37,995 bases of DNA from Gammaproteobacteria bacterium. GTDB lineage: Bacteria > Pseudomonadota > Gammaproteobacteria > Steroidobacterales > GCA-2729495. The notes under the pieces were generated by a model. The model was not told where the DNA came from. It searched no databases and saw only the letters and a program-made list of their open reading frames with translations. Location: NCBI GenBank assembly GCA_030066665.1, contig JASJBD010000046.1, positions 1-37,995 of the forward strand, written 5' to 3'. Positions 4,516-22,411 of this stretch are shown piece by piece. The first letter of the stretch is position 1, and each line of letters starts with the position of its first letter. The translations under genes and the position numbers were made by a program.

Positions 4516-5386
4516 CGGCAGTCAACGCCCGGCCCGCGCCTCTCATAACCCATTTCATCTTGCGCGGCGTGGACACGAAAGCGCGCTGATCCCAGGCCGC
4601 GGCGCCCCGTTCGCGCACTACCGCGCCGATATCTCCGTAGACCCCGCTGGCCGTGCTGACTGCCCAGCCTGCCCGGAAACCCAGCGCGCGCACGCCCTCG
4701 TTTGCCGACCGGTAGTAGCGATCCGCGACATCCAGCAAACGCTCGACGACGTCATACACTGTCTGCCGATGTTTCGGATAATCGACCTCGGCCGCCGGCA
4801 CATTGGCTGCCGCCAGCCAGTCCAGCGGCAGGTAGACACGGCCGTTCCCGGCGTCGTCCATCACATCGCGGGAAATATTCGTCAATTGAAAGGCGATGCC
4901 GAGGTCCGCGGCGCGGCCCAGCACGGCCGGTTCCTGCACGCCCATGACGTAGGCCATCATCACGCCGACGACACCCGCAACGTGATAACAATAGACAAGG
5001 GTATCTTCGAGGCTCTGGTATCGCCGGCCCTCGACGTCCATCGCGAAACCATCGATGAGTTCCATCGGATAGCGCTCCGGAATCCGGTAGCGCCGGGCGA
5101 CGCGCTGCAGGCCCTGAAATGCCGAATGCTCGACCGGTTCCCCGCGCAACGCTGCTGAAGTCTGCTGGCGGAGTTCATTGAGTCGCGCCCGGGCCTCCGC
5201 CGGGCCAATGTTCTCGCGCCCGAAGCCCATTTCCTGACCGTCGATCCGGTCATCGCAATAGCGACACCATGCGTACAGCATGTACACGTGCCGCCGGGTC
5301 TCGGAGTCGAATAGTTTTGCGGCCGCGGCGAAACTCTTCGAACCCCTGCGAATGGTTTCGCGGCTTGTGTCGACTACATTGTCCAG
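4445..5386 (-). CDS. crtB: Phytoene synthase CrtB, apparent CTG start
   Basis: Condenses two GGPP molecules to phytoene, the first committed carotenoid step. The aspartate-rich DDRID (residues 45-49) and DVMDD (174-178, after NISR) are both intact. The C-terminus (SPDLWMKP) also resembles other CrtB proteins. An automatic start at GTG 5287 would remove residues 1-33, including GSKSFAAAAKLFD and ETRRHV, which belong to the conserved CrtB N-terminus. Upstream of that GTG the frame stays open to a stop at 5441-5443 without ATG, GTG or TTG. The best start is CTG at 5386, two bases past the crtI stop (TGAgCTG) and 9 bases after AGGGGG, a strong ribosome binding site within crtI. This gives 313 residues, normal for CrtB. 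A base-call error at the start codon is the alternative. Confidence 0.9.
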   Translation of the reverse strand: MDNVVDTSRETIRRGSKSFAAAAKLFDSETRRHVYMLYAWCRYCDDRIDGQEMGFGRENIGPAEARARLNELRQQTSAALRGEPVEHSAFQGLQRVARRYRIPERYPMELIDGFAMDVEGRRYQSLEDTLVYCYHVAGVVGVMMAYVMGVQEPAVLGRAADLGIAFQLTNISRDVMDDAGNGRVYLPLDWLAAANVPAAEVDYPKHRQTVYDVVERLLDVADRYYRSANEGVRALGFRAGWAVSTASGVYGDIGAVVRERGAAAWDQRAFVSTPRKMKWVMRGAGRALTAVSLDRRREAPPRSPDLWMKPDLC

Positions 5387-5387
5387 C

Positions 5388-8041: not shown

Positions 8042-8050
8042 CTGGGAGAA

Positions 8051-8443
8051 TCAGGGCATTTTGATCTGGCCGCCGCCTGGCGGCACCGCGCCACCGGGGA
8101 CGTCGGCGCCAGGAACGATTATCGACGAAGCAGCCTCGCGCCGTAATTCCTCCAGCCTTTGCATCGCTTCCTCGACAGCGATACTCGCGCTGTCCCCGAA
8201 CTTGTCGGCCGCGTCACCGAGCGAGGCGGCCGGGATTTCAAATGTCAGCGGCAATGGGCCGGCGCGCGTCATCAGCTGCGTCTGGCCAACAAAAACCACG
8301 CCGCGGCTGGCGTCGGTGTCGCCGTTATGATCCACGGGAGTCAGGCGTTGAATCGTCCCGACCCGACGATCCGTAAAGACCTCTTCCTTGTAGAGGCCAT
8401 CCTTTTCCATTCTGATTTCGATTTCGCCCTTGTCGGCGGCCAT
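8051..8443 (-). CDS. Conserved hypothetical protein preceding crtY
   Basis: 130 residues with no signal peptide or membrane segment. It resembles an uncharacterised proteobacterial family I recognise from KEEVFTDRRVGTIQRLTPV and VFVGQTQLMT, followed by LPLTFEIPA and an acidic helix (EEAMQRLEELRREAA). The Gly/Pro-rich tail (GADVPGGAVPPGGG) is probably disordered. The ATG at 8443 is chosen because the open frame further upstream runs over the divergent srkA gene. It is the promoter-proximal gene of the unit leading into crtY, with a 9-base gap. Whether it has any role in carotenoid synthesis is unknown; co-transcription is an inference from spacing only. Confidence 0.8.
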   Translation of the reverse strand: MAADKGEIEIRMEKDGLYKEEVFTDRRVGTIQRLTPVDHNGDTDASRGVVFVGQTQLMTRAGPLPLTFEIPAASLGDAADKFGDSASIAVEEAMQRLEELRREAASSIIVPGADVPGGAVPPGGGQIKMP

Positions 8444-8527
8444 GCGCCCGCTCCTGTTGGATTCCAATCCATAAGGGTAACAGCACGGGCGATCCCATGC
8501 GTACCGGGACCCGAGGCGTCTTGCCAG

Positions 8528-8536
8528 TGTTACACT
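8528..8536 (+). promoter_or_regulatory. Candidate extended -10 promoter for srkA
   Basis: TGTTACACT at 8528-8536 fits an extended -10 element (TG, one base, then TACACT). No good -35 is visible upstream. The srkA ATG is at 8561, giving a leader of about 18 bases. The 117-base gap (8444-8560) also has to serve the divergent hypothetical-crtYIB unit, for which no clear promoter was recognised. Confidence 0.4.
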
Positions 8537-8560
8537 CCGCGCCCGCCCGGAGTTGCGTCC

Positions 8561-9553
8561 ATGCCCGCTGATTCGAGCCTCGCCTACCAGGACCTCCAAC
8601 CTGAAGACATTCTGGGCGCAGTGGAGAGCCTCGGGTTTCGCCCCGACGGCCGGCTCCTGGCGCTGAACAGCTACGAAAACCGCGTCTACCGCGTCGGCCT
8701 CGAAGACGCAGCCCCGCTGGTCGTGAAGTTCTACCGGCCGGGCCGGTGGACGGATGCGGCGATTCTCGAGGAGCATGAGTTCGCCGCAGAACTCGCCGCC
8801 GACGGTGTACCCGTGGTAGATGCCCTGCGCGTCGCTGGTCAGACGCTCCAGCATCGCGGCGAGTTCCGCTTCGCCGTCTATCCGTGCCACGGCGGACGCG
8901 CACCAGAACTCGACGACATGCAGCTATTGCGACAACTCGGCCGCCTGGTCGCGCGCATTCATCTGCGCGGCGCGACCGGGGATTTCGACGCACGTCCTCA
9001 CATCGATCTGGCCAGTTTCGGCAACGCGTCGAGCCGGTACCTGCTTGAAGCCGGGTTCATTCCGGCGGAACTGCAGCCCGCATATGCGAGTACCTGCGAC
9101 GATTTGTTTGCCGGCATCCAGGCCTGCTATGAACGTGCTGACCATCCGCGGCACATCCGCCTTCACGGCGACTTTCATCCTGGCAACGTGCTCGTCCGTG
9201 ACGATCGCGTGCACATCGTCGACCTGGACGATGCCCGCATGGGACCGGTCGTGCAGGACCTGTGGATGTTCCTGTCGGGACCCCGATCGGAACAAACGCC
9301 ACAACTCGAGGAATTGCTGCGCGGTTACACCGAGTTCGCCCGCTTTGACGCGCGGCAATTGCACCTGGTAGAGGCCCTGCGGACGTTACGCATCCTGCAC
9401 TACGCGGCCTGGCTGGCCCGCCGCTGGACCGATCCAGCGTTCCGCATTGCGTTTCCGTGGTTCAACTCGAATCGCTACTGGGACGAACACATCCTGAGTC
9501 TGCGCGAGCAGGTCGCAGCCATGCAGGAAGAGCCGCTGCAGTGGCTCGAGTGA
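8561..9553 (+). CDS. srkA: Stress response serine/threonine kinase SrkA (YihE/RdoA)
   Basis: 330 residues, close to the E. coli SrkA length. A cytoplasmic kinase of the aminoglycoside-phosphotransferase/choline-kinase fold, linked in E. coli to survival of envelope and antibiotic stress. Visible elements: the glycine-poor N-lobe with NRVYRV and the ATP-binding Lys in VVKFYRP (K56), the catalytic loop HGDFHPGN (D204), and the metal-binding DLDDA (221-225) followed by GPVVQDLWM. The C-terminal FPWFNSNRYWDEH is typical of the YihE group. Start ATG at 8561; the longer open frame to 8159 lies over the divergent gene. The VOC-fold gene follows after 17 bases and may be co-transcribed. Confidence 0.93.
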   Translation: MPADSSLAYQDLQPEDILGAVESLGFRPDGRLLALNSYENRVYRVGLEDAAPLVVKFYRPGRWTDAAILEEHEFAAELAADGVPVVDALRVAGQTLQHRGEFRFAVYPCHGGRAPELDDMQLLRQLGRLVARIHLRGATGDFDARPHIDLASFGNASSRYLLEAGFIPAELQPAYASTCDDLFAGIQACYERADHPRHIRLHGDFHPGNVLVRDDRVHIVDLDDARMGPVVQDLWMFLSGPRSEQTPQLEELLRGYTEFARFDARQLHLVEALRTLRILHYAAWLARRWTDPAFRIAFPWFNSNRYWDEHILSLREQVAAMQEEPLQWLE

Positions 9554-9570
9554 CCTACGACTGAACGAGA

Positions 9571-10491
9571 GTGATTGCACGCATTCTCAGGGGTCTCGAG
9601 ATGGTCACCTGGTGTGTGGATGACCTTGGCGCCGCGATCGATGGCTGGTCCCGATATCTGGATTTCCATGTCATCGCTCGCGAAGAACTCGACGCGGGAG
9701 CGGCGAGCGCCTGGAACACACCGGCGGCAGCCAGTTGCCCGAGCGCGTTGCTCCAGCCGGCGAGCGGCGAACCGGTCTTCATGCGCTTTGTCGAAACCGG
9801 CGAGCGTTACGGCTTCGACCGACCGCTGACCAGCGGCTGGACCGCTGCCGAGTTGCTGGTCGAGGATCCCGATGCGCTGGCCGACAAACTCGTCGGCACG
9901 CCGTTTCGTCGGCTGGCCGGTCCCGGGGACCTGTTTCCCGGCCCGAAGGCGCCGCGCGCCATGCAAATGACCGGCCCGAACGGGGAGCTGCTTTATTTCA
10001 CGCGAATTCTGCCCGGCGGCAGTCGCTATGGCATGAAGCAGGCACGCGCCTTCGTTGACCGACCATTTATCGTGACCATCGCGGGCACTTCCATGGCCCG
10101 CATGAGCACCTTTTACGGCGAGCAACTCGGCATGCGCGTGATGGAGCCGATCTCATTCATCAACGGGATTCTCGCGCATGCCGCCAGCCTGCCGCCGGAT
10201 ACCATTTTCCCAACCGCGATTGCACCGATCCCCGGGCGCAAATTCCTGATCGAACTCGACGAGTGTCCGGCCAGCCTGCCATCGCGGCCCATCACAGCGG
10301 GTCTGCCACCGCCCGGCATGGCACTGGTCAGCTTCACCGTTGCAAACCTGGACGCAACGCGCCTGGACCTGCGCACGCCGCCGACGCGTATCGAGGCAGC
10401 GCCCTATGGCGGGCGCCGCGCCGCTGTGATTTCCGGTCCCGCCGGTGAATGGCTGGAGCTGATCGAGACGCCGGTCAGTGGTGAGTGGTGA
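9571..10491 (+). CDS. Two-domain VOC (glyoxalase/dioxygenase fold) protein
   Basis: 306 residues formed by two vicinal-oxygen-chelate modules: one from about residue 8 (MVTWCVDDLGAAIDGWSRYLDF) to 150, the other from about 165 (FIVTIAGTSMARMSTFYGEQLGM) to the end. Each module carries the family's start of strand plus helix, with the sequence pattern FYxxxLGM in the second. Metal ligands are not obvious: no His is seen in the usual place at the start of module 1, so a metal-free or altered member is possible. The start is GTG at 9571; ATG at 9601 would also keep the first module. It lies 17 bases after srkA. The substrate is unknown. Confidence 0.8.
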   Translation: MIARILRGLEMVTWCVDDLGAAIDGWSRYLDFHVIAREELDAGAASAWNTPAAASCPSALLQPASGEPVFMRFVETGERYGFDRPLTSGWTAAELLVEDPDALADKLVGTPFRRLAGPGDLFPGPKAPRAMQMTGPNGELLYFTRILPGGSRYGMKQARAFVDRPFIVTIAGTSMARMSTFYGEQLGMRVMEPISFINGILAHAASLPPDTIFPTAIAPIPGRKFLIELDECPASLPSRPITAGLPPPGMALVSFTVANLDATRLDLRTPPTRIEAAPYGGRRAAVISGPAGEWLELIETPVSGEW

Positions 10492-10512
10492 GTCGTGAGG
10501 CACATCACTCAC
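10481..10512. terminator. Hairpin at a convergent gene junction, possible bidirectional terminator
   Basis: GTGAGTGGTG (10481-10490) pairs with CATCACTCAC (10503-10512), a 10-bp stem with one G-T pair and a 12-base loop. The stem overlaps the ends of both the VOC gene and the converging DUF938 gene. No U-rich tract follows on either strand, so it may only protect the 3' ends or help stop transcription. Confidence 0.4.
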
Positions 10513-11089
10513 GCACCCAGACAAGCAGCTGGTTATTGGCCGGCATCGGGTGATCGGCGAGGATGGACAGTCCCTGCAAGCCAGCCAGTTCATTGACAGC
10601 CTCGAAATCGCGAATGCCACTTTCCGGATCCTGCAACTGCAGGGAGCGGTTGAAGGCTGCATTGCTGGGCGTGGTGAACTCGCCACCGTAACGAAACGGC
10701 CCGTAGACGCACAGGCAGCCACCCGCCTCCAGCACTTCACCGGTTCCAGAGAAAAACTCTCTCACTTCGCGCCAGGACATGATGTGCAGCGTGTTGGCGC
10801 TGAATACCGCGTCCACGGCCTGAATGGACCACGGCCGCTGCTTTACATCGAGCTCCACCGGCGGAAGACAATTGTCCAGCGCGGCCGATTCAATGCATGC
10901 GGCCAGCATTGCCAGGTAGTCGCGCCGGTCCGTTGCCTGCCAGGTCAGCCATGGCATGGCCGCGGCAAAATGCACCGCATGCTGACCGGTGCCGGAGCCG
11001 ATTTCCAGGACCCGTTGCCGACTCGCGAGCACCTCCTTGATGACGTCGAGAATCGGTCCCTTGTTGCGCTCCGCTGCCGCCGAAATCAT
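10505..11089 (-). CDS. DUF938 family SAM-dependent methyltransferase
   Basis: 194 residues, the normal size for DUF938 proteins. It starts with SAAAERNKGPIL, a characteristic DUF938 opening, followed by the SAM-binding motif I VLEIGSGTGQHAVHFA (about residues 27-42), then ATDRR, the motif FSANTLHIMSW and the substrate-side YGPFRYGG. The family is related to human METTL26; its substrate is not known. The gene stands alone on its strand, with its 3' end converging on the VOC gene and its 5' end 124 bases from the divergent small four-cysteine gene. Confidence 0.9.
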   Translation of the reverse strand: MISAAAERNKGPILDVIKEVLASRQRVLEIGSGTGQHAVHFAAAMPWLTWQATDRRDYLAMLAACIESAALDNCLPPVELDVKQRPWSIQAVDAVFSANTLHIMSWREVREFFSGTGEVLEAGGCLCVYGPFRYGGEFTTPSNAAFNRSLQLQDPESGIRDFEAVNELAGLQGLSILADHPMPANNQLLVWVRE

Positions 11090-11213
11090 TGGCCCACTCG
11101 TGTTGCTGGTGACCCGCGCATTCTATCGGGCGACCAGTCCGTGATTGCCAGTCTCAAGTTATGGCCAACGCTGCCGATATCACCAAGGCAAGCACGTCGT
11201 GGGGAGACGCGGG

Positions 11214-11594
11214 ATGGCATTCGATCTGGGGAACACGAACGACCCTGGCCTGATGGCCTTCATCAGTCAACTGGTGGAGGACTCGAGCCTGTCGCCGGCC
11301 GAGGACGAGGTCGCGCGCGCGGCCCTCGACCAAGGCATCGATGCGCTTTCCACCGAGGATCGCGGGCGGCTCGAGAGCAGCGTGATCGAACCTTACCTTG
11401 GTGACTGCGAAGCCTGCGGCACGACACCGGCGTGGGAACAGGTCCTGATGGTGTACGACACCGGTCTGTGCGCGACGTGCTTCGACAAGCTCGAAGGCGC
11501 CGACACACTCGGTGTGCGACCGGAGTGGATGCCGCTCGTCACCACACCGGACGAGGATGAAGACGCCCCCGAGCCGGTGCCGGCGCCGCTTTAG
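11214..11594 (+). CDS. Small acidic protein with a CxxC-CxxC zinc-ribbon-like element
   Basis: 126 residues, no signal peptide. Residues about 1-60 are predicted helical and acidic (AFISQLVEDSSLSPAEDEVA). Around residue 65 lies CEAC, followed 18 residues later by CATC, which fits a four-cysteine zinc or iron site. The C-terminus is rich in Asp, Glu and Pro (TPDEDEDAPEPVPAPL) and is probably disordered. The start is the ATG at 11214, preceded by GGGAGACGCGGG; the open frame also runs upstream to 11145 but without a better start. I do not recognise the family. A DNA-, RNA- or protein-binding adaptor is plausible but unproven. Confidence 0.72.
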   Translation: MAFDLGNTNDPGLMAFISQLVEDSSLSPAEDEVARAALDQGIDALSTEDRGRLESSVIEPYLGDCEACGTTPAWEQVLMVYDTGLCATCFDKLEGADTLGVRPEWMPLVTTPDEDEDAPEPVPAPL

Positions 11595-11702
11595 TCCGCG
11601 CAATAAGCTCGCAACAAGCCAGACTACCGTGCGATTGCCGCCGCCGGTAACCCCCACGTATTGAGCTTCGCGCCCCGGGCACGAAGCGACTATGCTCTGC
11701 CA

Positions 11703-12749
11703 ATGCTCGCTCCCGGCAACCACATCTCCTACCCGCTCGATCGAACGAAGCCGGCCGACGGTGCGACACTCGAAGTGGCGCCCGGTGTCCACTGGCTGCG
11801 CATGCCGTTGCCGTTCGTGTTAAACCACATCAATTTGTGGCTGCTTGCCGATGGAGACGGCTGGACGCTCGTCGACACGGGCATCCGGTCCCGCAAGACG
11901 CAGGAAATCTGGGAGCAGGTGTTGCAGCGAGACATCGGCGGCAAGCCGGTGCGCCGGATTATCGTGACGCATCTGCATCCGGATCACGCCGGCCTGGCGG
12001 GCTGGTTGTGCGAAAGACTCGGGGCGGAGCTATGGATGACGCGCGAGGAATACCTGTTGGCGCGCGTTCTCGCCAGCGACCGGCCGCCGCCGCCAGAATC
12101 GGCCCGGCAGTTTTTCCAGGCTGCCGGCATGACGGCCGAGCAGCTGGAACGCTACGCCAGCCATTACGGCCAATACGCCCAGGTCGTGTCGGACCTGCCC
12201 CTGAGCTACCGCCGTTTGCAGCAAGACGAGGAACTCCAGATCGGCGCCAACCGCTGGCGCGTCGTCATCGGTCGCGGCCATTCACCGGAGCACGCCTGCC
12301 TCTATTGCGAGTCGCTCGGCCTGCTGATCGCAGGCGACCAGGTACTACCCACGATTTCACCGAACATCGGGGTGTGGCCGACCGAACCGCACGCCAACCC
12401 GCTCGCGGATTGGCTGGAGTCCTGTCGCCGCCTGCCCGTGCAGATTCCGGACAGCGTACTGGTCCTGCCCGCGCATGGCCGACCCTTTCATGGCCTGAAA
12501 CCTCGCCTGGCAGCGTTGATCGAGGAACACGAGTCCGGCTTGCAGCGATTGCGCGGGCTGTGTGCGGAACCGAAACGGGTGGTCGACGTGTTCGAGGCGC
12601 TGTTTCGCGGCGCGGTCACGAGCGGGAACCTGATCATGGCAATCGGCGAATCGGTCGCCCATTTACGCTACCTGCAGGCGGAAAACGAAGTGACGGTGAA
12701 GCGCGATGCCAACGGCGTCGACTGGTACCAGTCGCAGCGGACCTACTGA
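11703..12749 (+). CDS. MBL-fold metallohydrolase
   Basis: 348 residues of the metallo-beta-lactamase superfamily. The first metal motif is THLHPDHAG (H90, H92, D94, H95), the third ligand His is in GRGHSPEHACLY, the bridging Asp in IAGDQVLP, and the last His in LPAHGRPF. A helical C-terminal region (about residues 265-330: LRGLCAEPKRVVDVFEALF) resembles that of LACTB2-like and other hydrolases with a winged-helix-type tail. Likely a thioester, lactone or phosphodiester hydrolase; the substrate is open. The start is the ATG at 11703, in a 108-base gap. The 3' end overlaps the converging GST gene by 7 bases. Confidence 0.9.
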   Translation: MLAPGNHISYPLDRTKPADGATLEVAPGVHWLRMPLPFVLNHINLWLLADGDGWTLVDTGIRSRKTQEIWEQVLQRDIGGKPVRRIIVTHLHPDHAGLAGWLCERLGAELWMTREEYLLARVLASDRPPPPESARQFFQAAGMTAEQLERYASHYGQYAQVVSDLPLSYRRLQQDEELQIGANRWRVVIGRGHSPEHACLYCESLGLLIAGDQVLPTISPNIGVWPTEPHANPLADWLESCRRLPVQIPDSVLVLPAHGRPFHGLKPRLAALIEEHESGLQRLRGLCAEPKRVVDVFEALFRGAVTSGNLIMAIGESVAHLRYLQAENEVTVKRDANGVDWYQSQRTY

Positions 12750-13417
12750 CCCGTCACGCGCGGCGCCATATATTTCATGAAACCATCGACGGCGGCGCCA
12801 TATTCATCGACGGTCATGCTGCAGATCTCGTGTCCCTGAATTGCCTGCCACCACGTCGCGAGGCGACCACCGTTCGCGGTCGGATCGGATACCTCATCGA
12901 AGTTCGCGAAGACGACTTTTTTCAGCAACATCATGTAAGGCGCAGCCGAACAATCGCCGAGCGTGGGTCCACCGGCGACACAGAACGGGCCTGATCCCAT
13001 GAAATGCTTCAGGTAACCAAATCCTTTCTGCAGCGCCGTGGCCGTCTCGTCGACGATCGCCTGGTCCCGATTGGCTGGATTGAGCTGGCGGAAAAACGTA
13101 CTCGTGTGCGGCGCGATGTACAGGTCTACGATCCGCGATATCAGTCGCGAGGTCGCCCGCTCGAGCGGTGCGCCGGGAAGACCCGGCCGGCCCTCACCAA
13201 GATCTTCCAGGTATTCACAGATTACTTCGGATTCGGCGATGCACTGGCCGTCGACATCGAGACTCGGGATCTTGCCGATCGGGTTGATCGCGCGATACTC
13301 ATCCGACGCCGGTGAATCGCCGGGGATGCCAGCCAGCTCGAGCTCGATCCCCTTGAGCCGGGCGAGCATAAGAACGCGGGTCACGTAGGGGGAAGCAAGG
13401 GCGCCATAGAGTTTCAT
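12743..13417 (-). CDS. Glutathione S-transferase family protein
   Basis: 224 residues. The N-terminal thioredoxin-fold domain (about 1-80) begins MKLYGALASPYVTRV, with a Ser at residue 9 that could activate the thiol, the cis-Pro motif GKIPSL and the glutathione gamma-glutamyl-binding ES in CIAESEVICEYLED. The C-terminal helical domain (about 90-210) includes GPFCVAGGPTLGDCSAAPYMML, where the capping Asp is present. Cytosolic. Likely detoxification of electrophiles; substrate unknown. The start at 13417 is preceded by CAGGAGC, a good ribosome binding site; the longer frame to 13660 overlaps the divergent LLM gene and is rejected. Confidence 0.93.
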   Translation of the reverse strand: MKLYGALASPYVTRVLMLARLKGIELELAGIPGDSPASDEYRAINPIGKIPSLDVDGQCIAESEVICEYLEDLGEGRPGLPGAPLERATSRLISRIVDLYIAPHTSTFFRQLNPANRDQAIVDETATALQKGFGYLKHFMGSGPFCVAGGPTLGDCSAAPYMMLLKKVVFANFDEVSDPTANGGRLATWWQAIQGHEICSMTVDEYGAAVDGFMKYMAPRVTGQ

Positions 13418-13491
13418 TGGATGCTCCTGTTGTTGATTGTTCCGCAAACGGCAGGTTCCTGCTGGAGCGAATGGTCGGCGAACTGCGCCGA

Positions 13492-13527
13492 CCGGGTCAA
13501 ACCCGGCAGCCAGGCAGCGTCTATAAT
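13492..13527 (+). promoter_or_regulatory. Promoter with perfect -10 and a palindrome, upstream of the LLM oxidoreductase
   Basis: A perfect -10 box TATAAT lies at 13522-13527. No consensus -35 is present at the right distance. Instead CCGGGTCAAACCCGG (13492-13506), a 6-bp perfect palindrome with a 3-base centre, covers the -35 region. That is a plausible operator or activator site. Transcription would start near 13534, leaving about 23 bases before the GTG at 13557. Confidence 0.5.
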
Positions 13528-13556
13528 GCGCGGCTACCCAAAGCCGCGGGGTTGCC

Positions 13557-14642
13557 GTGGACGTAGACATCATCCTCGAGTGCGATGTGCCGCCGGCGCA
13601 GGTTGCCGAACTGGCGGTGGTCGCCGAACAACTCGGTATCCGGGCGCTGTGGTCATCCAATTACCATCAAAACTGGGATGCGTTCATGACGCTGATGCCG
13701 GCAGCGGCAGCAACGTCCCGGATCATGCTCGGCGCGCTCGCGATCAGTCCCTGGGAACTGCATCCGTTGAAGATGGCCAACTCCGCCCTGACGCTGAACG
13801 AGGCGTCGAATGGTCGCGGCATGGTCGCGATATCCGGCGGGGGCGGCGTGCTGGGCGCACTCGGCTGGAAAATTTCACCCAATGCGCCACTTTGGCCGGC
13901 CGCGGACCCGGTTAGCGGCGCGCGCTATCCGGAGCGTCGCGTACGGGGCGTGCGCGAGTGTATCGACATCCTGAAGCAGGCTCGCTCCGGAAAACTGTCC
14001 TGGCCGTACGAGGGGCAGGTATTCCAGGTGACGCGACCCTTCCAGATGGACTGGGCGAAGGCCGCCGGCCCGGTCATTTATGGGTGCTGCAGCGGACCGC
14101 AAATGATTCGTATGGGCGCCGCGCACGCCGATGCCATCCAGGTGAGCGACTTCACGGTCGACATGCTGCCGGCGGCGATGGACAACGTCAGGCGTGGCCT
14201 GGCGCGTCGCGCGGAACCGGCGGACGGCTTTCGGGTCGGCAATTTCTGGGCCTGGCATGTCAAACGGGACCGGGAGGTGTCGATGTACGAGGCGCGCCGG
14301 GAACTGATCTGGCGCGGTGCCGTGGCCGCGAAACACGCGCATGAGCTGCGCCCATTTTGCCAGGATGACGAAGAAGTGAAACTCATCGTTGACAACTGGG
14401 ACAACTTTTTCAAGGCTTTCTGGACACGCAGCGGGCAGATTGACGGAGTGCCTGACGAGCTGGTGAATCGCCTCATCGCGGGCTTGTCGTCCGCGGGCGA
14501 TCTGAGCGACCTGGATCGGGAGCTCGAGCGCGTTCGGCAGTTCGCCGACAGTGGCTTGACCGAGCTGTCGCTGCGCTTGTTCGACGACCCGCTGGATGGC
14601 CTGCAGATGATTGGCGAGCACGTTTTGCCAGTCTTGCATTGA
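13557..14642 (+). CDS. LLM-class (luciferase-like) flavin-dependent oxidoreductase
   Basis: 361 residues with the bacterial-luciferase TIM-barrel pattern: VAELAVVAEQLGIRALWSSN near the N-terminus, IMLGALAISPWELHPLKMA, the flavin-binding region GRGMVAISGGGG, then RRVRGVRECIDILKQ and AGPVIYGCCSGPQMIRMGAAHAD. Members use reduced FMN or F420; which one applies here is not clear. The start used is GTG at 13557, with a perfect -10 box 30 bases upstream; no alternative ATG keeps the first beta-strand. The stop TGA overlaps the ATG of the following exported protein (TGATG), so the two are likely translated together. Substrate unknown. Confidence 0.88.
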   Translation: MDVDIILECDVPPAQVAELAVVAEQLGIRALWSSNYHQNWDAFMTLMPAAAATSRIMLGALAISPWELHPLKMANSALTLNEASNGRGMVAISGGGGVLGALGWKISPNAPLWPAADPVSGARYPERRVRGVRECIDILKQARSGKLSWPYEGQVFQVTRPFQMDWAKAAGPVIYGCCSGPQMIRMGAAHADAIQVSDFTVDMLPAAMDNVRRGLARRAEPADGFRVGNFWAWHVKRDREVSMYEARRELIWRGAVAAKHAHELRPFCQDDEEVKLIVDNWDNFFKAFWTRSGQIDGVPDELVNRLIAGLSSAGDLSDLDRELERVRQFADSGLTELSLRLFDDPLDGLQMIGEHVLPVLH

Positions 14643-15205: not shown

Positions 15206-16525
15206 CTAGTTGGCTGCAGACCGGGCGCGGATTTCCTTCTGGATGACTTTCTCCGGCGGATGCGCCGCCGTAACCTGCCCGCGCGAGCCGTGCACGCGCA
15301 CCTGCGCGATCCAATTGGCCGCCAACCAGGCCAGCAACGCCGTGCCGAACATCGCGCCGACCGGCGCCGCTATCTCAATCAATGAGTCCTGTCGCCAGAA
15401 GATGCCACTGTAGGCTTCCAGTGCCCACGTGTTCGGCGTTAGCCAGCCGACTTTTTGCAGGGCTTCCGGCATGAATATCCGTGGCACCATGCTGCCGCCC
15501 AACGCCGACACGACGAGAATCGCCGTATTTGCAATGGTTTGTGCCTGGCGCCGGGTCCGACAGGCTGTCGCCAATAACATGGCGAGACCGGCAGCGGTGC
15601 AGGAAGCAACCACGGTGACAACGAACCAGGGCAGCACGTGGCTCGGCAGATCCAGGCCATAGCCCAGCCACGCGACCACGAAGATCACGCCGACCTGCAA
15701 GACCCCCTGCAACACCAGGTACAGAAATTTGCCGTTGACCAGCACGGCGATACCGCCCGGACCCGCCAGCACGCGGTCAAGTACGCCGGACTCCTGTTCT
15801 TCCAGCAGCGATACGGCGCCATGGACCGACGCAAACAGCAGGAACATGAAGGCGACGGCACCGGCGGAATACGCCACGAGGTTGAGCTCGCCACCGTCGC
15901 CCGCGACTTCGTCATACGCGAGCATATCCTCGAAGGACCAGCCGGTGCTGCGACCGGCCTCCGCGTCGGCGCGCATTTCCGTCAGGCCGTCATCGACTTC
16001 GGCACGCTGTTCCTCGGTCAGGCTGAGGAACTGGTTCTCCAGCTCCTCGACGACACTACCCATCGCGACATCCGGCAGCCCGCCGAAATAGGCCTGGCGG
16101 ATCTGGCCCGTGAGCATCGGCACTGCAACGGCTTTGGCCGGGTCGCTGACAATGACTATGGGCTCTGGCCCAAACCCGCCGGGGGAGTCCAGTGGATCGG
16201 CGTCCGCCGGCAGCAACAGACCCACGTCTGCGACGCCGTTGCGAACCATTTTCCTGAGCATTTCCCGGTCCGCGTCGCCGGCGTTGTCGAGGCGCGTCAC
16301 GCGCAGGTTGGCTGAATCGTCGAGCGCGCTCAACAGTCGCGCCGAAGTCTCGTCGCGGACTTCATCGAGAACCGCGACATTCAGATTGAGGCTGTCGCCG
16401 GTCGTGGCCGTAAAGATCTCGGCCATGATGACGAAAAACACTGCAGGCAACACGAAACTCATCAACAAGGCGCCGCGATCGCGCAGCAGTCCCAGCAGCA
16501 TGGCTCTGAAAATCGCGATACTCAT
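15206..16525 (-). CDS. ABC-2 type transporter permease
   Basis: 439 residues. One transmembrane helix near residues 20-38 (LMSFVLPAVFFVIMAEIF), then a large soluble, probably periplasmic, domain of about 180 residues (NVAVLDEVRDE, VGLLLPADADPL), then five to six hydrophobic helices from about residue 225 onward (LVAYSAGAVAFMFLLFASVHG, VGVIFVVAWLGYGL, VVTVVASCTAAGLAMLL, TIANTAILVVSALGG). This layout is that of ABC-2 exporters of the YhhJ/DrrB kind. The start is the ATG at 16525, 10 bases after the stop of the ATPase gene, so the pair forms one transporter. Cargo unknown: such pairs export lipids, drugs or peptides. Its 3' end is 18 bases from the converging exported-protein gene. Confidence 0.9.
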   Translation of the reverse strand: MSIAIFRAMLLGLLRDRGALLMSFVLPAVFFVIMAEIFTATTGDSLNLNVAVLDEVRDETSARLLSALDDSANLRVTRLDNAGDADREMLRKMVRNGVADVGLLLPADADPLDSPGGFGPEPIVIVSDPAKAVAVPMLTGQIRQAYFGGLPDVAMGSVVEELENQFLSLTEEQRAEVDDGLTEMRADAEAGRSTGWSFEDMLAYDEVAGDGGELNLVAYSAGAVAFMFLLFASVHGAVSLLEEQESGVLDRVLAGPGGIAVLVNGKFLYLVLQGVLQVGVIFVVAWLGYGLDLPSHVLPWFVVTVVASCTAAGLAMLLATACRTRRQAQTIANTAILVVSALGGSMVPRIFMPEALQKVGWLTPNTWALEAYSGIFWRQDSLIEIAAPVGAMFGTALLAWLAANWIAQVRVHGSRGQVTAAHPPEKVIQKEIRARSAAN

Positions 16526-16535
16526 TCGGCACTCG

Positions 16536-17504
16536 TCACAGCCGCAGCTCCTCGCCAGTTGCCCGCAACAGCACACCCTCGAGGCAGGCCTCGCGGACGC
16601 GCACCTCGGCAGTTCGAAGTCCTGCCTGCTGCAGACGCGACGTCAGTTCCCCGACATGTGCGAGATCGCTGGAAACGGGCCCGCTCCAGGTAATCGAACC
16701 ATGGGCCGGTTTCAGCTCGAGTTCCTGCAGCAACGATACGCCGCTGTCGTCCGGCACATCCCGCAGCACGATTTTCAATTCCTGGCGCGTATCGAATTCC
16801 CGATGAATCAGCTCCGACGGCGATCCCTGCAGACAAATGCGTCCGTCAAGCATTACGGCAACGCGATCGGCCAGCGCTTCAGCCTGGCTCAGATCGTGCG
16901 TCGTCAGCAACATCGCCAGGCCGTTGGCGCGCAGACGGCGCAGCAGTTCGTGCACCCGCTCGCGCGCGCTCATGTCGACACCCACCGTGGGTTCGTCCAA
17001 CAGCACGACATCGGGATGGTGGAGCAGGCTCGCAACGATGTTCAAGCGTCGCCGCATACCGCCCGATAGAGTTTCGCAGTGCGCGTCCGACCGATCTGCC
17101 AAACCTGCCCAACGGATGGCTTCATCGACGCGCTCATGCAAAGTCGCGCGGGACACACCCATCATGCGCCCGAAAACTTCGAGGTTCTCGCGGACGCTCA
17201 GGTAGGGATAGACAGCCAGGTGCTGGGGCACGAAGCCCAGCCGCGAACGCACCTCCGCATGCCGCCGCGGATCCTGTCCGGCCAGACGAACTTCGCCCGA
17301 ATCCAGCGCAATCCGCCCGCAGGCGGTAGCGAGCAGCGTGCTCTTCCCGGCGCCGTTTGGTCCCAGCAGCACGAGTATTTCGCCGGGGTAGAGATCCAGG
17401 TCGACGCCATCGAGAGCCCGCCAGCCGCCGAGCATTTTGACCGCCTGGCTGATTTGCAACAGGGGCGGGTTCGGACCGCCAGCCGCCGTCGGACTGTGAC
17501 TCAT
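16536..17504 (-). CDS. ABC transporter ATP-binding protein
   Basis: 322 residues. Walker A GPNGAGKST (48-56), Q-loop VPQHLAVYP, signature ETLSGGMRRRL, Walker B VVLLDEPTVGVD and the H-loop TTHD are all present, so it should hydrolyse ATP. The region after about residue 230 is a C-terminal extension (LQELELKPAHGS, LQQAGLRTAEVRV) as in many ABC-2 exporter ATPases. The start is the ATG at 17504 (MSHSPTAAGG); five codons of open frame precede it. It lies 55 bases after the ThDP fusion gene on the same strand, so the ThDP gene and the transporter could share a transcript. The permease follows after 10 bases. Confidence 0.93.
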   Translation of the reverse strand: MSHSPTAAGGPNPPLLQISQAVKMLGGWRALDGVDLDLYPGEILVLLGPNGAGKSTLLATACGRIALDSGEVRLAGQDPRRHAEVRSRLGFVPQHLAVYPYLSVRENLEVFGRMMGVSRATLHERVDEAIRWAGLADRSDAHCETLSGGMRRRLNIVASLLHHPDVVLLDEPTVGVDMSARERVHELLRRLRANGLAMLLTTHDLSQAEALADRVAVMLDGRICLQGSPSELIHREFDTRQELKIVLRDVPDDSGVSLLQELELKPAHGSITWSGPVSSDLAHVGELTSRLQQAGLRTAEVRVREACLEGVLLRATGEELRL

Positions 17505-17559
17505 TATCCGGCCCAACAATAACCAAGCGTCATTGTAGACGCAGCGCGGGCTTCATTGC

Positions 17560-19797
17560 TCAGACGAGTTCCGCATCAGTCAGGATTTCAACTATGGCGG
17601 GGCCGGCACAAGCCAGCCCTTCCGCCAGGGCTGCATCCAGCTCGTCGGCGGCCGTCACCCGCAGGCCAAGCGCACCGCACAAACTGGCGTACTCGGCAAA
17701 GTTCGGGTTACTCAGCGAGGTTTCCCAGACCGGCCACTGACCGGCCCGCTGTTCCTTGCTGATCTTGCCCAGCTCGCTGTTATTCAGGAGCACATGGGTA
17801 ATGTTCATGCCGCTGCGAACGGCAGTCGTCACTTCGGCGAGGTATTGTCCAAAGCCACCGTCGCCGGTCACCGCAATCACTTTTCGCCCGGCGTACTCGG
17901 CGAAGGCCTGGGTCGCGGCCCAGGCACCCATCGCGGCGGGGAAGCCAAAGCCGATCGACCCCAGGTAGCCGGACATCAGCACGCGATGCCGGCGACATTC
18001 GAAATAGCGCCCGAAGGAATACGTGTTGTTCCCGACGTCCACGGCGATTACCGCATCCTCCGGCGCCAGGCGGGTGAGCGCATCGAACACCAGGGCCGCG
18101 TTCAGGCCGCGGCCGCGATCCCGGGATCGCCGTTGGGCTTTCTCCGCGCGCCAGATTGACCAACGCTCGGCAAGTTCGGCGCGCTGGTCGACTCCCGCTC
18201 TGTCATCCGGCAGGCCTTGTCGCAGCGCTTCGGCCGTGACGCCGATCTCGGCCCAGACGGGTAGCTCGACCGCGTGAAATTTGCCCAGGGCCATCTGGTC
18301 GAAATCGACCTGAATAATAGGTTTCTTGCGTTCGATGCCGGTGTGATCAGCAAATGACGCACCGAATACGACCAGCAGGTCGGCTTCGTTCATGAACCAG
18401 CTCGCGACCGGGGTGCCGCTGCGGCCGAGCACGCCGGCTGCCAGCGCGTGGTCATCCGGTATCTGGCCCTTTGCCTTGAAGGTCGTCAGCACCGGTGCAT
18501 TGAGGCGCTCTGCCAACGCGATCACCTCGACCATGCTGTCGCGTGCGCCGTAACCGACAATGATGGCGGGTCGCGACGCGACAGCCAGCCGGTCGATCGC
18601 AGTCGCGATAACAGCCGGATCGGCATGCACACGCGGATCGGCGACACGGCCAGCGGCGGTCCCCGCAGTCGCCGCCTCGTCGGCCGGAATTGTCTGTACC
18701 TCGTCGGGAAAGATCAGGTGGGCAACATCGCGTCGCACGATGGCGTTCTTGCAGGCGAGGTTCATCAGTTCGGCGTGGCGGGAGTCACGGAACACCGTCT
18801 GGCTGTAGGCTGCCACTGGCGCGAAAGCCGTCGCCAGATCGATTTCCTGGAAAGCGCCCGGACCCAGCACCTGCGATTGCACCTGCCCGGTCAGGGCCAG
18901 GACCGGGGCGCGATCAACCTTGGCATCCCACAGCCCCGTCAACAGGTTCGTCGCGCCAGGACCGGCGATTGTCAGGCAGGCCGCGGGCTTGCCGCTGAGT
19001 TTCGCAAACCCCGACGCAGCAAATGCGGCTGCGCCTTCGTGGCGCACGGCGATGTAGTTCAACCGGCCCTGCTCGACCTGCAGGCGTAACGCGTCGGCCA
19101 GACCGAGATTCGAATGACCAACCATGCCGAACACATGGGTGATGCCCCAGTTGACGAGGGTCTCGGCCATTAGGTCGCTGACTGTGCGGATGTGGGCCGT
19201 GCTCTCCCGGATGGCGACATAGATGCCATCGTCGCGGACTTCGACCGGGTACGTGTCGACACCGTCGTCATGAGAACCGGGCGATTTACCCGTCAGCGGA
19301 TGAAAGTCCCAGCCATGCCAGGGGCAGCGCAGCCAGCACTGGTCCTCCACGCCGCGCTCGATCGAACCCTCCGCCAACGGTCCGCCCTGGTGCGGACAGG
19401 CATTGTCCAGCGCGCCGTAGTCACCATCGAGTCGAGTCAACGCGACCGTTTTCGTGCCTGCCTGCACGGGCCGAACCTCGCCGTTCTGCAGGTCGTCTGT
19501 TTCGGCGACCTTGTACCAGACGGTGCGCCACCCGGCCTGCTCGTCCAACTCTTCCTGTGCAATCTGCTTGTGACTGCCGTCGCAGTACGGTGGCTTTGCG
19601 GTTCGCTTGCACTGACACAGGAACTGTTTCCCGGATTTTTCGGGCACATAGGCCAGCGGTTCGAAATCGCTGCCGGCGTGGGAACCGTCGCAAAACGGCT
19701 GGTTGCCGGAACGCCCGCAGGAACACCAGTAATAGGTCTTGCCCGCCTCCAGTTCGACCGGGGCTGGACGTGTATCGGCGATCGCGGGCTTGGCCAT
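17560..19797 (-). CDS. CDGSH-CDGSH-Rieske-ThDP enzyme fusion protein
   Basis: 745 residues in four modules. Two complete CDGSH iron-sulfur motifs (C25, C27, C36, H40 and C61, C63, C72, H76) come first. A Rieske [2Fe-2S] domain follows (C134, H136, C158, H161, with CPHQGGPL and CPWHGWDF; 21 residues between the ligand pairs). From about residue 202 there is a full ThDP-dependent enzyme of the acetolactate synthase/pyruvate oxidase/benzoylformate decarboxylase family: the catalytic Glu in RHEGAAAFAA (E254), GPGATNLL, and the ThDP/Mg site GDGGFG (from 645) ending in NN (672-673). It should attack a 2-oxoacid; the clusters could accept electrons from the ThDP intermediate (inference). The start at 19797 is set by AGAGGG just upstream. 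A signal-peptide-bearing D-2-hydroxyacid dehydrogenase faces it across 37 bases. Confidence 0.93.
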   Translation of the reverse strand: MAKPAIADTRPAPVELEAGKTYYWCSCGRSGNQPFCDGSHAGSDFEPLAYVPEKSGKQFLCQCKRTAKPPYCDGSHKQIAQEELDEQAGWRTVWYKVAETDDLQNGEVRPVQAGTKTVALTRLDGDYGALDNACPHQGGPLAEGSIERGVEDQCWLRCPWHGWDFHPLTGKSPGSHDDGVDTYPVEVRDDGIYVAIRESTAHIRTVSDLMAETLVNWGITHVFGMVGHSNLGLADALRLQVEQGRLNYIAVRHEGAAAFAASGFAKLSGKPAACLTIAGPGATNLLTGLWDAKVDRAPVLALTGQVQSQVLGPGAFQEIDLATAFAPVAAYSQTVFRDSRHAELMNLACKNAIVRRDVAHLIFPDEVQTIPADEAATAGTAAGRVADPRVHADPAVIATAIDRLAVASRPAIIVGYGARDSMVEVIALAERLNAPVLTTFKAKGQIPDDHALAAGVLGRSGTPVASWFMNEADLLVVFGASFADHTGIERKKPIIQVDFDQMALGKFHAVELPVWAEIGVTAEALRQGLPDDRAGVDQRAELAERWSIWRAEKAQRRSRDRGRGLNAALVFDALTRLAPEDAVIAVDVGNNTYSFGRYFECRRHRVLMSGYLGSIGFGFPAAMGAWAATQAFAEYAGRKVIAVTGDGGFGQYLAEVTTAVRSGMNITHVLLNNSELGKISKEQRAGQWPVWETSLSNPNFAEYASLCGALGLRVTAADELDAALAEGLACAGPAIVEILTDAELV

Positions 19798-19834
19798 TAG
19801 GTTACCCTCTTGTTGTCCTGTCGGGAGTATAGAC

Positions 19835-20929
19835 ATGAAAGGTTGGCTGCGACTCGCGCTTGTATCCTGGTTCGCCATCGCGTCGGCAACGGCCAGCGGG
19901 AGCGATATCGTGACCGAGCTCGGCCTCCGCGAGGCGACGACGCCAGTGCGTCAGGATCCGCGGTGGTCAGCGAGCGGACCGATTGTAGTCCGCGTCGATT
20001 CCGCGGAGCGCGCCGCCGAAATGCAGCGGATCGCGGGCGATCGCCCTGTCATTGCCGTCACCTCAGAGGCGGAAGCCCTGCCCGTCATGAAAGAAGCGAC
20101 CGCGCTAATGGGTTATTGCTCGGCCAGGCTGCTCGATGCCGGGCCCCAGGTCCGCTGGGTGCAGGCGTATTCCTCGGGCGCGGAAAGATGCGTTGTGCTG
20201 CCGCGTATTGCGGACGGGCAGATCCTGTTGACCAACATGCAGCGAATTTCAGGACCGGAAATCGCCGAACACGTCATTGGCATGCTGCTGACCTTCACAC
20301 GCGGACTGAACGGCTACGCGAGAGCCCAGGCATCGGGTGAATGGCAACCCGAGCTCATACCCATGTCGCAACGTTGGGAGCTCACCGGCCGAACCATGCT
20401 GGTCGTCGGCTTGGGTGGTATCGGCACCGAAGTCGCACGACGCGCCAGTGCGTTGGGCATGGAAGTCATCGCGGTGCGCGCCAGCGGCCGACCCGGACCA
20501 GACTTCGTTGCGGAAGTGGGCCGCCCGGATGCGTTGCTGGCAATGGCCGGGCGGGCCGATGCCGTGGCGAATACTGTGCCGCTGACCCCTCTGACCCGGG
20601 GCATGTTTGACGCCGGCGTGTTCGATGCCATGCCCGCACACGCCTATTTTCTTAATGTCGGGCGCGGCGGCACAGTGGTGACCGATGATCTGGTGGCCGC
20701 GTTACGCGGCGGAGCAATTGCCGGCGCCGGACTGGATGTGACCGATCCCGAGCCGCTGCCGGCCGGACACCCGTTGTGGTCCATGCCGAACGTCATCATT
20801 ACGCCGCACGTGTCCGCTGGATCGGATCTCGTGCGCGAACGCTTGTTCGCGGTCGCAAAAGAAAATCTGCGCCGCTACGTCGCCGGTGATCCCCTGGTAT
20901 CCGTGGTCGATCCCGAGCGCGGCTACTAG
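19835..20929 (+). CDS. D-2-hydroxyacid dehydrogenase with an N-terminal signal peptide
   Basis: 364 residues. Residues 1-20 look like a cleavable signal: MKGWLR, the hydrophobic stretch LALVSWFAIASA, then ATA before Ser-Gly. The rest is an NAD(P)-dependent D-2-hydroxyacid dehydrogenase: GLGGIG (192-197), catalytic R277 in NVGRGG, E306 in DPEPLP and H325 in TPHVSAG. The residue after the second strand is Arg (VIAVRAS), not Asp, which often means NADP(H). The start is fixed by GGGAG at 19824, 6 bases before the ATG; the open frame to 19739 lies over the divergent gene. Export of an NAD(P) enzyme is odd since free cofactor is scarce outside the cytoplasm. A membrane anchor or cytoplasmic use of the N-terminus is an alternative. 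Confidence 0.88.
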   Translation: MKGWLRLALVSWFAIASATASGSDIVTELGLREATTPVRQDPRWSASGPIVVRVDSAERAAEMQRIAGDRPVIAVTSEAEALPVMKEATALMGYCSARLLDAGPQVRWVQAYSSGAERCVVLPRIADGQILLTNMQRISGPEIAEHVIGMLLTFTRGLNGYARAQASGEWQPELIPMSQRWELTGRTMLVVGLGGIGTEVARRASALGMEVIAVRASGRPGPDFVAEVGRPDALLAMAGRADAVANTVPLTPLTRGMFDAGVFDAMPAHAYFLNVGRGGTVVTDDLVAALRGGAIAGAGLDVTDPEPLPAGHPLWSMPNVIITPHVSAGSDLVRERLFAVAKENLRRYVAGDPLVSVVDPERGY

Positions 20930-21220
20930 GCCAACCGTACTAACCCGCGAATGCGGCTCATTCGATAGTGAGTCTTTCCAGCATGTTATCGCGTTTTCTT
21001 TCAATTGAAATGAAGCCGGCCCGATTCGCATTGACAATCGCTGCGCAATGCCCATGATCCGCGCGGGTGATCGGTTACACTGTCCCTGAGCGGCGCTTGT
21101 TCCAACAATACGTCAACACAAGTCCGCCAACTGGTTCGAATAAGAAACAAAATTAGCCGGACCGCCCTAAATCAGTAGAACACAGCCCGCGGGTTGCATA
21201 GCCAGCGAACGGATTCGTCG
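20930..21220 (+). other. 291-base intergenic leader before the Rieske oxygenase gene
   Basis: No gene is seen here. A -35-like TTGACA lies at 21031-21036, but no good -10 follows at 16-18 bases. TACACT (21076-21081, four of six -10 matches) has no -35. The part near 20970-21010 and 21120-21160 is A/T-richer than its surroundings, as expected for a regulatory region. No clear terminator follows the dehydrogenase gene. It probably holds the oxygenase promoter and a leader, but none could be fixed. Confidence 0.4.
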
Positions 21221-22411
21221 ATGTCCACACAACTCCTCAGCGCCAGTTTTCACAGGGAATCTCTTCACGACTATTGGTTACCAGTGGAATTCGCAAAGCG
21301 AATCGGTCGGGACGCCCCTTACGGCGTGCAGGTTTTCGGTCGGCCGATCGTCTTGTTCAGAGATCGGACCGGGGTCATACGCTGTCTCGAAGATCGCTGT
21401 CCGCACCGGGCCGCACCGCTCTCGCTGGGAAACGTGTCGGGAGGTCGCCTCCGTTGCCCCTACCACGGTTGGGAGTTCGACGGCTGTGGCCGCTGCGCGC
21501 GAATACCGAGCGTCGCAGACAAAGAGATCGAGGCTGGTCGACAGCTCATCCGGATTCTGCCGGCCGCCGAAAAGGGCGGTATGGTGTGGGTCTGGCCAGG
21601 CAATCCGGACCTGGCTGACGAAGCCACGATTCCGTTGCCGTCATTGCCGCCTGCGGACGAGCCATTCGCCGCACTGAAGGAACACTACGACATCGCGTCG
21701 CACTACTCCCTGCTGTCCGCCAACCTGTCGGACCCGGCGCATGTGCAGTTCGTTCACGCCGGCATCCTCGCCCGGATCGTCCGTCGCAAGAGCTATCCGG
21801 TGCGATTCCTGGACGTCGGGGACACTGTCACAGGCTGGCCCGTGGGCCGAACCGAAGTGGAGAACAACGGTCGCATGAGCTACTACCACTACGAGTATCA
21901 GTCCCCGTTCCTGATCACGAAGACGGTCAAGAGCTGGTTCGGCAAGAAACCCGTCACCAACTTCCACTGGGAATTCGCCGTCCCGTTAAAGCGCAATCTG
22001 ACGCGGTTTTTCTTTTTCCAGTACCGCACTTTCTTCAACGGCCCGTTGACCAAGCGAATGATGGCGCCGCTGTACCGCCACATGGCAAAAAAGGTGACCG
22101 AGGAAGACCGGCGCATCATCGAGGCCCAACAATCGCAGCTCGAGCAGGGAGCGGTTTTCAACGCGCTCGTTCCAGCCGATCGCCTGCTCCGGCGGTATCA
22201 CCGCAAAATCAATATGCTCGAACGTCCGACCGACTGGTTTGCCGGTTTTGACGTGCCTTACCCGAGCGAAGGATCAGTGTCACAGTCCGCGGTTCGCCAG
22301 GAAGAGCCGGGAAGACCCTATATCGGTCTCGAGGAGACAGCCGCGGAACTGGTATCGCCGGCAGGGTATTTCGCTGACGAAGTTTCCGTCGACAACCTGC
22401 GCGGCAACTGA
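21221..22411 (+). CDS. Rieske-type non-heme iron oxygenase, large subunit
   Basis: 396 residues. The N-terminal Rieske domain has C60-P-H62 and C79-P-Y-H82, exactly the C-X-H-X16-C-X2-H spacing. The catalytic mononuclear iron site follows with N168, D171, H174 and H179 in NLSDPAHVQFVH. The C-terminal part (SYYHYEY, NFHWEF, TEEDRRIIEAQQSQLEQ) resembles vanillate O-demethylase and pheophorbide a oxygenase type enzymes that act without a small subunit. It would need a reductase, which is not encoded here. The ATG at 21221 opens MSTQLL; upstream codons to 21194 are also open but less likely. It stands alone after a 291-base gap. Substrate unknown: O-demethylation or ring oxidation of an aromatic or tetrapyrrole compound. 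Confidence 0.92.
   Translation: MSTQLLSASFHRESLHDYWLPVEFAKRIGRDAPYGVQVFGRPIVLFRDRTGVIRCLEDRCPHRAAPLSLGNVSGGRLRCPYHGWEFDGCGRCARIPSVADKEIEAGRQLIRILPAAEKGGMVWVWPGNPDLADEATIPLPSLPPADEPFAALKEHYDIASHYSLLSANLSDPAHVQFVHAGILARIVRRKSYPVRFLDVGDTVTGWPVGRTEVENNGRMSYYHYEYQSPFLITKTVKSWFGKKPVTNFHWEFAVPLKRNLTRFFFFQYRTFFNGPLTKRMMAPLYRHMAKKVTEEDRRIIEAQQSQLEQGAVFNALVPADRLLRRYHRKINMLERPTDWFAGFDVPYPSEGSVSQSAVRQEEPGRPYIGLEETAAELVSPAGYFADEVSVDNLRGN

Follow-up and report, generated by a model that had tools for sequence, protein, structure and literature searches.

A gammaproteobacterial fusion of two CDGSH modules, a Rieske domain and a thiamine diphosphate enzyme, and the family of its Rieske-fused relatives

Among described thiamine diphosphate (ThDP) enzymes, the pyruvate oxidases PoxB and POX and the pyruvate:quinone oxidoreductase PQO come closest to the protein considered here, which is encoded in a 37,995-nucleotide stretch (hereafter the window) of contig JASJBD010000046.1 from the gammaproteobacterial assembly GCA_030066665.1 and joins two CDGSH (NEET) modules, a Rieske domain and a ThDP enzyme on one chain. 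They share with it the three-domain ThDP fold, the catalytic Glu and an equivalent of POX Glu483, and they provide its best PDB sequence and Foldseek matches; identity is nevertheless only ~24-34%, and the window protein has N-terminal Rieske and CDGSH modules and, like the rest of the family described below, a Lys in place of the relay Phe. Acetohydroxyacid (acetolactate) synthases have the same fold and similar scores, but the aligned acetohydroxyacid synthase (AHAS) carries Gln where the family has the POX-type Glu, and the family has its own pocket signature as well as its Fe-S modules. A preliminary description of the window, made from its sequence alone, had likened the protein to pyruvate:ferredoxin oxidoreductase (PFOR). 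As functional logic this comparison stands, since in both PFOR and other 2-oxoacid:ferredoxin oxidoreductases and, as proposed, in the present protein, Fe-S clusters would oxidise the ThDP intermediate; the likeness goes no further, as the ThDP part belongs to a different subfamily (POX/AHAS-type) and Pfam finds neither a PFOR/POR domain nor a 4Fe-4S ferredoxin domain in the window protein. CDGSH/NEET proteins have the CDGSH module in common with it, and the Rieske ferredoxins of dioxygenase systems (CarAc, T4MOC) the type of Rieske module, which in the family is fused to a ThDP enzyme.

CDGSH-Glu_synthase and CDGSH-Rieske_2 combinations have already been listed (Sengupta et al., 2018; PMC5859297), in a paper whose main text, figures and supplements aside, contains no occurrence of 'thiamine' or 'TPP'. 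In searches of the open-access literature for the fusion or its parts, the titles and abstract openings listed contained no description of a CDGSH-Rieske-ThDP or Rieske-ThDP protein and no functional study of the Rieske-ThDP family. Those two pairings apart, what is new here is the electron-transfer attachments on a ThDP enzyme of POX/AHAS fold, together with the Rieske/CDGSH-glutamate-synthase-like protein linked to the ThDP gene.

Anatomy of the fusion gene

The CDGSH-CDGSH-Rieske-ThDP fusion is a real gene in which all predicted ligands are present (Table 1). At its fullest extent the open frame covers 772 codons (17560-19878, minus strand). The ATG at 19797, giving a protein of 745 residues, is preferred as the start because it agrees with the start position of the relatives, is directly preceded by a purine-rich AGAGGG stretch and leaves a short gap to the divergent neighbouring gene, whose likely start at 19835 would be overlapped by a longer reading. 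In this protein Pfam recognizes, in order, two zf-CDGSH stretches (64.7 bits against a cut-off of 29.5), a Rieske domain (residues 94-171; 64.7 bits against 20.3) and TPP_enzyme_N, M and C (E 2e-31 to 1e-33), all of them exceeding the curated cut-offs. Both CDGSH modules follow the ligand pattern C-x-C-x(n)-C-D-G-x-H, with ligands C25/C27/C36/H40 and C61/C63/C72/H76, and the Rieske domain the pattern C-x-H ... C-x2-H, its four ligands being identical in 47/47 aligned proteins. The modules, order, ligands and catalytic residues given in the preliminary description are thus borne out, including Glu254, which is identical in all 86 rows of the alignment discussed below. Among solved chains, 3tbn and human CISD3 (6avj) are nearest to the CDGSH part, and Rieske ferredoxins such as CarAc (1vck) and T4MOC to the Rieske part.

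The genome of the window is a draft of 171 contigs (87% complete) and its relatives are mostly metagenome-assembled genomes (MAGs), circumstances in which an assembly or frame artefact might fuse separate genes. This explanation can practically be dismissed: ten further loci (designated L001-L009 and L011) carry the same four-module order at 65-76% identity and fall into one clade with the window, and one of them (L002) comes from a MAG whose chromosome is a single record of 3.5 Mb. The module borders are therefore neither an assembly join, which the preliminary description had named as a possible refutation, nor a product of chance.

Table 1. Coordinates of the fusion gene, its modules and two neighbouring genes in the window
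Feature	Position	Strand	Basis or remark
Whole gene, CDGSH-CDGSH-Rieske-ThDP enzyme, 745 amino acids	17560..19797	-	Same order in L001-L009 and L011
Two CDGSH (NEET) modules, residues 3-77	19567..19791	-	Ligand motifs at 19678-19725 and 19570-19617; Pfam zf-CDGSH
Rieske [2Fe-2S] domain, residues 94-200, C134-x-H136, C158-x2-H161	19198..19518	-	Pfam Rieske
ThDP enzyme N domain, residues 205-321	18835..19185	-	Pfam TPP_enzyme_N; catalytic Glu254 at 19036-19038
ThDP enzyme central domain, residues 397-525	18223..18609	-	Pfam TPP_enzyme_M
ThDP enzyme C domain, residues 587-738, predicted ThDP-Mg site D646-G647...N673	17584..18039	-	Pfam TPP_enzyme_C
K678-I-S-K-E682 family signature	17752..17766	-	K678, K681, E682 identical in 86/86 rows
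D-2-hydroxyacid dehydrogenase-like protein, divergent neighbour	19835..20929	+	Pfam 2-Hacid_dh_C; context, not proven part
Luciferase-like flavin monooxygenase	13557..14642	+	Pfam Bac_luciferase; context, not proven part

A constant Rieske-ThDP core with clade-specific additions

A scan of genome contigs confirmed at least 573 relatives, the best 80 of which were analysed (the other 493 may include ordinary ThDP enzymes); these 80 loci come from 79 genomes, and some of them end at contig edges. The Rieske-ThDP core forms one frame in 80/80 loci kept, so that the idea of a single-instance protein is rejected, whereas a pair of CDGSH motifs stands ahead of the core in only 12 of the 80 and in the window. 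The constant core of the family is thus Rieske-ThDP, and the CDGSH pair is a clade-specific addition. A core tree of 81 rows (quick search; support by SH-like approximate likelihood-ratio test, SH-aLRT) groups ten of these CDGSH loci with the window (99) and puts the other two, L048 and L066, in a second clade (96), in which the extension is a different one, CDGSH-Fer4_19-CDGSH. The CDGSH label requires two changes on this tree, on which the starred branches would still permit one origin. The two different extensions suggest that Fe-S modules were gained more than once. The second clade has single frames that are larger still (L066:5410-8079 and L048:1920-4565), running from CDGSH, Fer4_19 and CDGSH to Rieske and the ThDP enzyme.

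The record titles, mostly of MAGs, span about ten bacterial phyla (Pseudomonadota, Acidobacteriota, Gemmatimonadota, Nitrospirota, Myxococcota, Planctomycetota, Calditrichota and others). The core is found as well on plasmids, four of them haloarchaeal (60-62% identity) and one from Mycobacteroides (55.5%), all five copies being annotated 'thiamine pyrophosphate-binding protein', and the haloarchaeal copy examined has the Rieske domain. In a sample of 274 genomes from the window's class (presumably Gammaproteobacteria; hereafter the class sample), the core occurs in only four, the window's genome included. Such a sporadic, partly plasmid-borne distribution is what would be expected of a transferred gene.

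The gap of 21 residues between the Rieske ligand pairs, singled out as unusually wide in the preliminary description, is real and has little meaning, because members of the same family have a gap of 16 (21/80 loci, with 20-22 in the other 59): it is a lineage trait.

The glutamate-synthase-like partner and other neighbours

Neighbouring genes were counted from coding-bias gene calls and by tblastn within the fetched flanks. The gene caller produced a cluster of 30 glutamate-synthase-like (GltS-like) members, including the ordinary GltS of L038 and L079; tblastn with the GltS core detected 34 loci, which after subtraction of these two leaves a close GltS relative near 32 of the 80 ThDP genes, as short contig-edge fragments in L060 and L077. 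The usual partner is a fusion of Rieske with PF01645 (glutamate synthase), as Pfam shows for L013 from Woeseia, where an antiporter, Rieske-GltS, DUF5996 and Rieske-ThDP follow one another on one strand. In Labrenzia sp. THAF82 (L076) the GltS gene and the Rieske-ThDP gene adjoin each other. In L004 and L005 a double-CDGSH-PF01645 fusion stands immediately after the ThDP gene instead (Pfam for L004, motifs for both). The L004 CDGSH-GltS protein is 56-61% identical to nine aligned Rieske-GltS proteins and, because of this, the CDGSH pair and the Rieske domain can be said, from the alignment, to occupy the same place in the same GltS-like enzyme. Three cysteines of the L004 protein (C417, C423 and C428), which we take to be the ligands of the glutamate synthase [3Fe-4S] cluster, are kept in this alignment. 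L004, a tubeworm endosymbiont MAG, has on one strand (4145-9768) a solo double-CDGSH gene, a pirin-like and a methyltransferase-like gene (both named by eye), CDGSH-Rieske-ThDP and CDGSH-GltS.

Two of the four haloarchaeal plasmids likewise have Rieske-GltS downstream of the ThDP gene, at ~4 kb in Halorarius and 1.4 kb in Salinirubellus, while no GltS is among the listed genes of the plasmid stretches from Halorubrum, Haloferax and Mycobacteroides. Genome-wide, with a partner defined by at least 63% identity (matches of 34-50% being counted as ordinary GltS, and a 58% contig-edge fragment in G343 left out), the GltS partner occurs in 52/79 family genomes (31/50 + 21/29), which include 6 of the 12 CDGSH loci. 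Within the class sample, 3/4 family genomes encode Rieske-GltS, versus 6/270 others (Fisher p = 1e-4, uncorrected for relatedness and excluding two contig-edge matches, G048 and G056); all nine of these proteins have the Rieske motif, and in two of the three family cases the ThDP gene is adjacent. Double-CDGSH-glutamate-synthase proteins also occur in this sample outside ThDP-enzyme genomes, for example in L104 and L106-L108.

A tree of 21 double-CDGSH modules, built on 76 columns and with only two true solos, separates the 19 modules of ThDP and GltS proteins from the solos of L004 and L006 (SH-aLRT 100); L103 and L105, 'solo' by the motif rule, are GltS matches and were counted among the 19. 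The modules of the L004 and L005 ThDP proteins cluster with GltS modules (82), apart from the other nine, a pattern that fits an exchange of the CDGSH module between ThDP and GltS enzymes. Derivation of the fused pair from the adjacent solo CDGSH gene of L004 and L006 is not supported, both solos lying outside the other 19 modules.

A ferric-reductase-like protein is encoded near 18/80 loci, with a fused Rieske motif in 16/16 inspected (L070: PF01794 and PF00355), and a protein without Pfam match adjoins it in the same 18 loci. The latter measures ~260 amino acids (e.g., L036:3589-4365) and has, by eye, an 'FVGW/FVGY' stretch near its start. A Na/H exchanger is found in 14/80 loci, once as a fragment, and adjoins the ThDP gene on the Halorarius plasmid.

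Among the 80 loci, only L002 has the D-2-hydroxyacid dehydrogenase-like gene beside the ThDP gene (63% identity) and the luciferase-like gene near it (74%). The N terminus of the former protein looks, by eye, hydrophobic and signal-like, which would be unusual in an NAD enzyme. Judging by eye from sequence starts, window positions 10508-14642 and L002 positions 8244-12489 have in the same order a methyltransferase-like gene, a small protein, a metallo-beta-lactamase-fold protein and the luciferase-like gene; two ABC-transporter genes (15206-17519) intervene in the window and not in L002. A VanA-type Rieske oxygenase (Pfam) is encoded not far from the fusion gene, on the plus strand at 21194-22411.

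Proposed reaction and electron path

That electrons might leave the ThDP intermediate through the clusters, as the preliminary description had suggested, is plausible, and it is a reasonable lead because the best Foldseek matches are PoxB and PQO and because proteins repeatedly encoded nearby have their own Rieske or CDGSH modules. The analysis establishes how the modules are arranged and conserved, how widely the family is spread, and how the partner is built and linked. We propose, with a probability of roughly 0.45, that the protein works in the cytosol as a ThDP-dependent 2-oxoacid oxidoreductase that has its electron exits built in. Once its predicted cofactors are bound, the ThDP enzyme would decarboxylate a 2-oxoacid to the enamine, which would then be oxidised, its electrons passing to the Rieske cluster either directly or via a flavin in the central domain, presumably an FAD or ADP site in relatives. 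In the window's clade the electrons would continue from the Rieske cluster to the two NEET clusters and, singly, to a soluble or membrane partner with matching modules. The typical acceptor would be the Rieske- or CDGSH-fused FMN and [3Fe-4S] glutamate-synthase-like protein, joined in some genomes by the Rieske-fused ferric-reductase-like membrane protein as an additional acceptor.

In favour of this proposal, the cluster ligands and the ThDP site are all retained, as far as sequence comparison goes, and the linked Rieske/CDGSH-GltS and Rieske-ferric-reductase neighbours add to the PoxB and PQO matches and to an invariant Glu682. In a signature alignment of 86 rows (the window, the 80 loci and the five plasmid copies), D646 and G647 are, like E254, identical throughout, and N673 is kept in 81 rows and replaced by Asp in five. 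H228, S229, N230, F316, Q317, K678, I679, K681, E682 and Q683 are likewise invariant, H228/N230/K678/K681/E682 serving as the family signature (86/86, in rows that were picked as relatives and are thus not independent). In the alignment to PoxB and POX, a pyruvate-oxidase-like pocket is favoured because E682 matches POX Glu483 and F316-Q317 match POX Phe121-Gln122.

Several observations weigh against the proposed oxidoreductase, the first of them in the active site. Lys678 (86/86) occupies the site of the pyruvate-oxidase Phe (POX Phe479, PoxB Phe465) at the gap between ThDP and flavin. We assume this Phe to be a relay between ThDP and FAD, a role on which a literature check gave nothing usable. 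As judged from the alignment, the POX electron path is not kept, because an invariant Lys replaces the relay Phe, and on the same ground the family enzyme is not a standard pyruvate oxidase. The site is variable (Phe, Met, Gln, Asn and Met) in five non-family rows, only Streptomyces poxB having Phe and an annotated Metabacillus pyruvate oxidase having Met; the relay Phe is therefore not strict among annotated oxidases. These residues bear equally on another explanation, that of a PoxB-like, flavin-dependent pyruvate oxidase whose FADH2 would pass its electrons to the fused clusters instead of the membrane quinone. PoxB tops the PDB sequence matches as well as the folds (tied in the second comparison below), Asp498 is invariant at the position of PoxB Asp292, presumably an FAD contact, and, unlike in PoxB, the C-terminal membrane tail is absent, as expected without a quinone acceptor (the profile match stops at 531/574 and the protein ends three residues later). 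Against such an oxidase stand the Lys at the relay site, the differences at most of PoxB positions 251-254 and 274-278, which we take to be FAD positions, and the NCBIfam scores, all 25 models shown (of 58) lying well under their cut-offs and the best, pyruvate oxidase, reaching 369.9 versus 742 bits. We consider it rather unlikely.

The fold, too, leaves the reaction unsettled. The structure predicted from 47 sequences (pLDDT 86.8, pTM 0.79) has E. coli PoxB and C. glutamicum PQO as best Foldseek matches; in a second PDB comparison, limited to residues 201-745, PoxB comes first (Z 41.3, 510 residues, root-mean-square deviation 2.4), tied with HKA synthases (40.9 and 40.7) and closely followed by PQO (39.7) and by acetolactate synthases, cyclohexane-1,2-dione hydrolase, glyoxylate carboligase and benzaldehyde lyase (38-39.1). 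For this predicted model, oxidases cannot be told apart by structural score from acetolactate synthases, HKA synthases and lyases. The protein might be a ThDP carboligase, decarboxylase or C-C lyase without redox chemistry, in which the Rieske and NEET modules sense redox state or iron, or stabilise or regulate the enzyme, and carry no catalytic electrons. Besides the spread of such enzymes within ~3 Z of PoxB, the loss of the oxidase Phe relay and the distinct pocket fingerprint H228, N230, K678 and K681 speak for this alternative, as does the known lability or sensor function of NEET clusters. From alignment ranges, H228 is possibly like His28 of cyclohexane-1,2-dione hydrolase. It is opposed by the repeated linkage to other proteins bearing Rieske or CDGSH electron-transfer modules, by the invariance of the Rieske ligands and the persistence of the domain in the haloarchaeal copy, and by the retained POX-type Glu682. 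We hold it to be doubtful, while giving it serious weight.

The remaining adverse points concern the partners, in addition to which we know of no assay of a family enzyme. No GltS partner match was found in 27/79 family genomes, many of which are drafts. In the window's own genome (87% complete) only ordinary glutamate synthase was found, with no GltS partner, no Rieske-ferric-reductase protein and no further CDGSH gene, and because of this neither the GltS partner nor the Rieske-ferric-reductase seems obligatory. A strict pairing of CDGSH-ThDP with CDGSH-GltS, to which L004 and L005 had pointed, is rejected: L002 and L003 pair CDGSH-Rieske-ThDP with Rieske-GltS, in the genomes of L057 and L062 a ThDP protein without CDGSH is accompanied by a GltS that is, by match extent, of CDGSH type, and CDGSH-type GltS occurs in 30/274 class genomes, none among the four family genomes, as called from matches starting at residue 1-5 of the query, with motifs inspected in six of the 30 (L103-L108). 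It is very unlikely that the Fe-S modules are docking handles, with structural clusters, that join the ThDP enzyme to the GltS-like protein or other partners for substrate hand-over. The placing of either Rieske or a CDGSH pair at the same GltS position and the related CDGSH pairs on both enzymes would suit docking, but the partner was not found in the window's genome, pairing is not strict and the retained redox ligands exceed what docking would need.

Returning to the oxidoreductase with built-in electron exits, we advance as a speculative extension, improbable as it stands, that in both bacteria and haloarchaea the ThDP and GltS-like enzymes form a two-enzyme redox couple. The oxidative decarboxylation of a first 2-oxoacid would then, through interchangeable Rieske/NEET modules, power a reductive step, perhaps an amination, on a second. 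In such a couple the NEET domain would serve as a plug-in connector for electrons, which to our knowledge is not a role usually assigned to it. The linked Rieske/CDGSH-GltS gene is a concrete candidate partner. If the proposal is true, the family would represent a third design for electron exit from ThDP intermediates, beside FAD/quinone in PoxB and the 4Fe-4S ferredoxin in PFOR, and NEET domains, the cellular role of which is disputed, would gain a defined partner in catalytic electron transfer, one that lends itself to in vitro assay.

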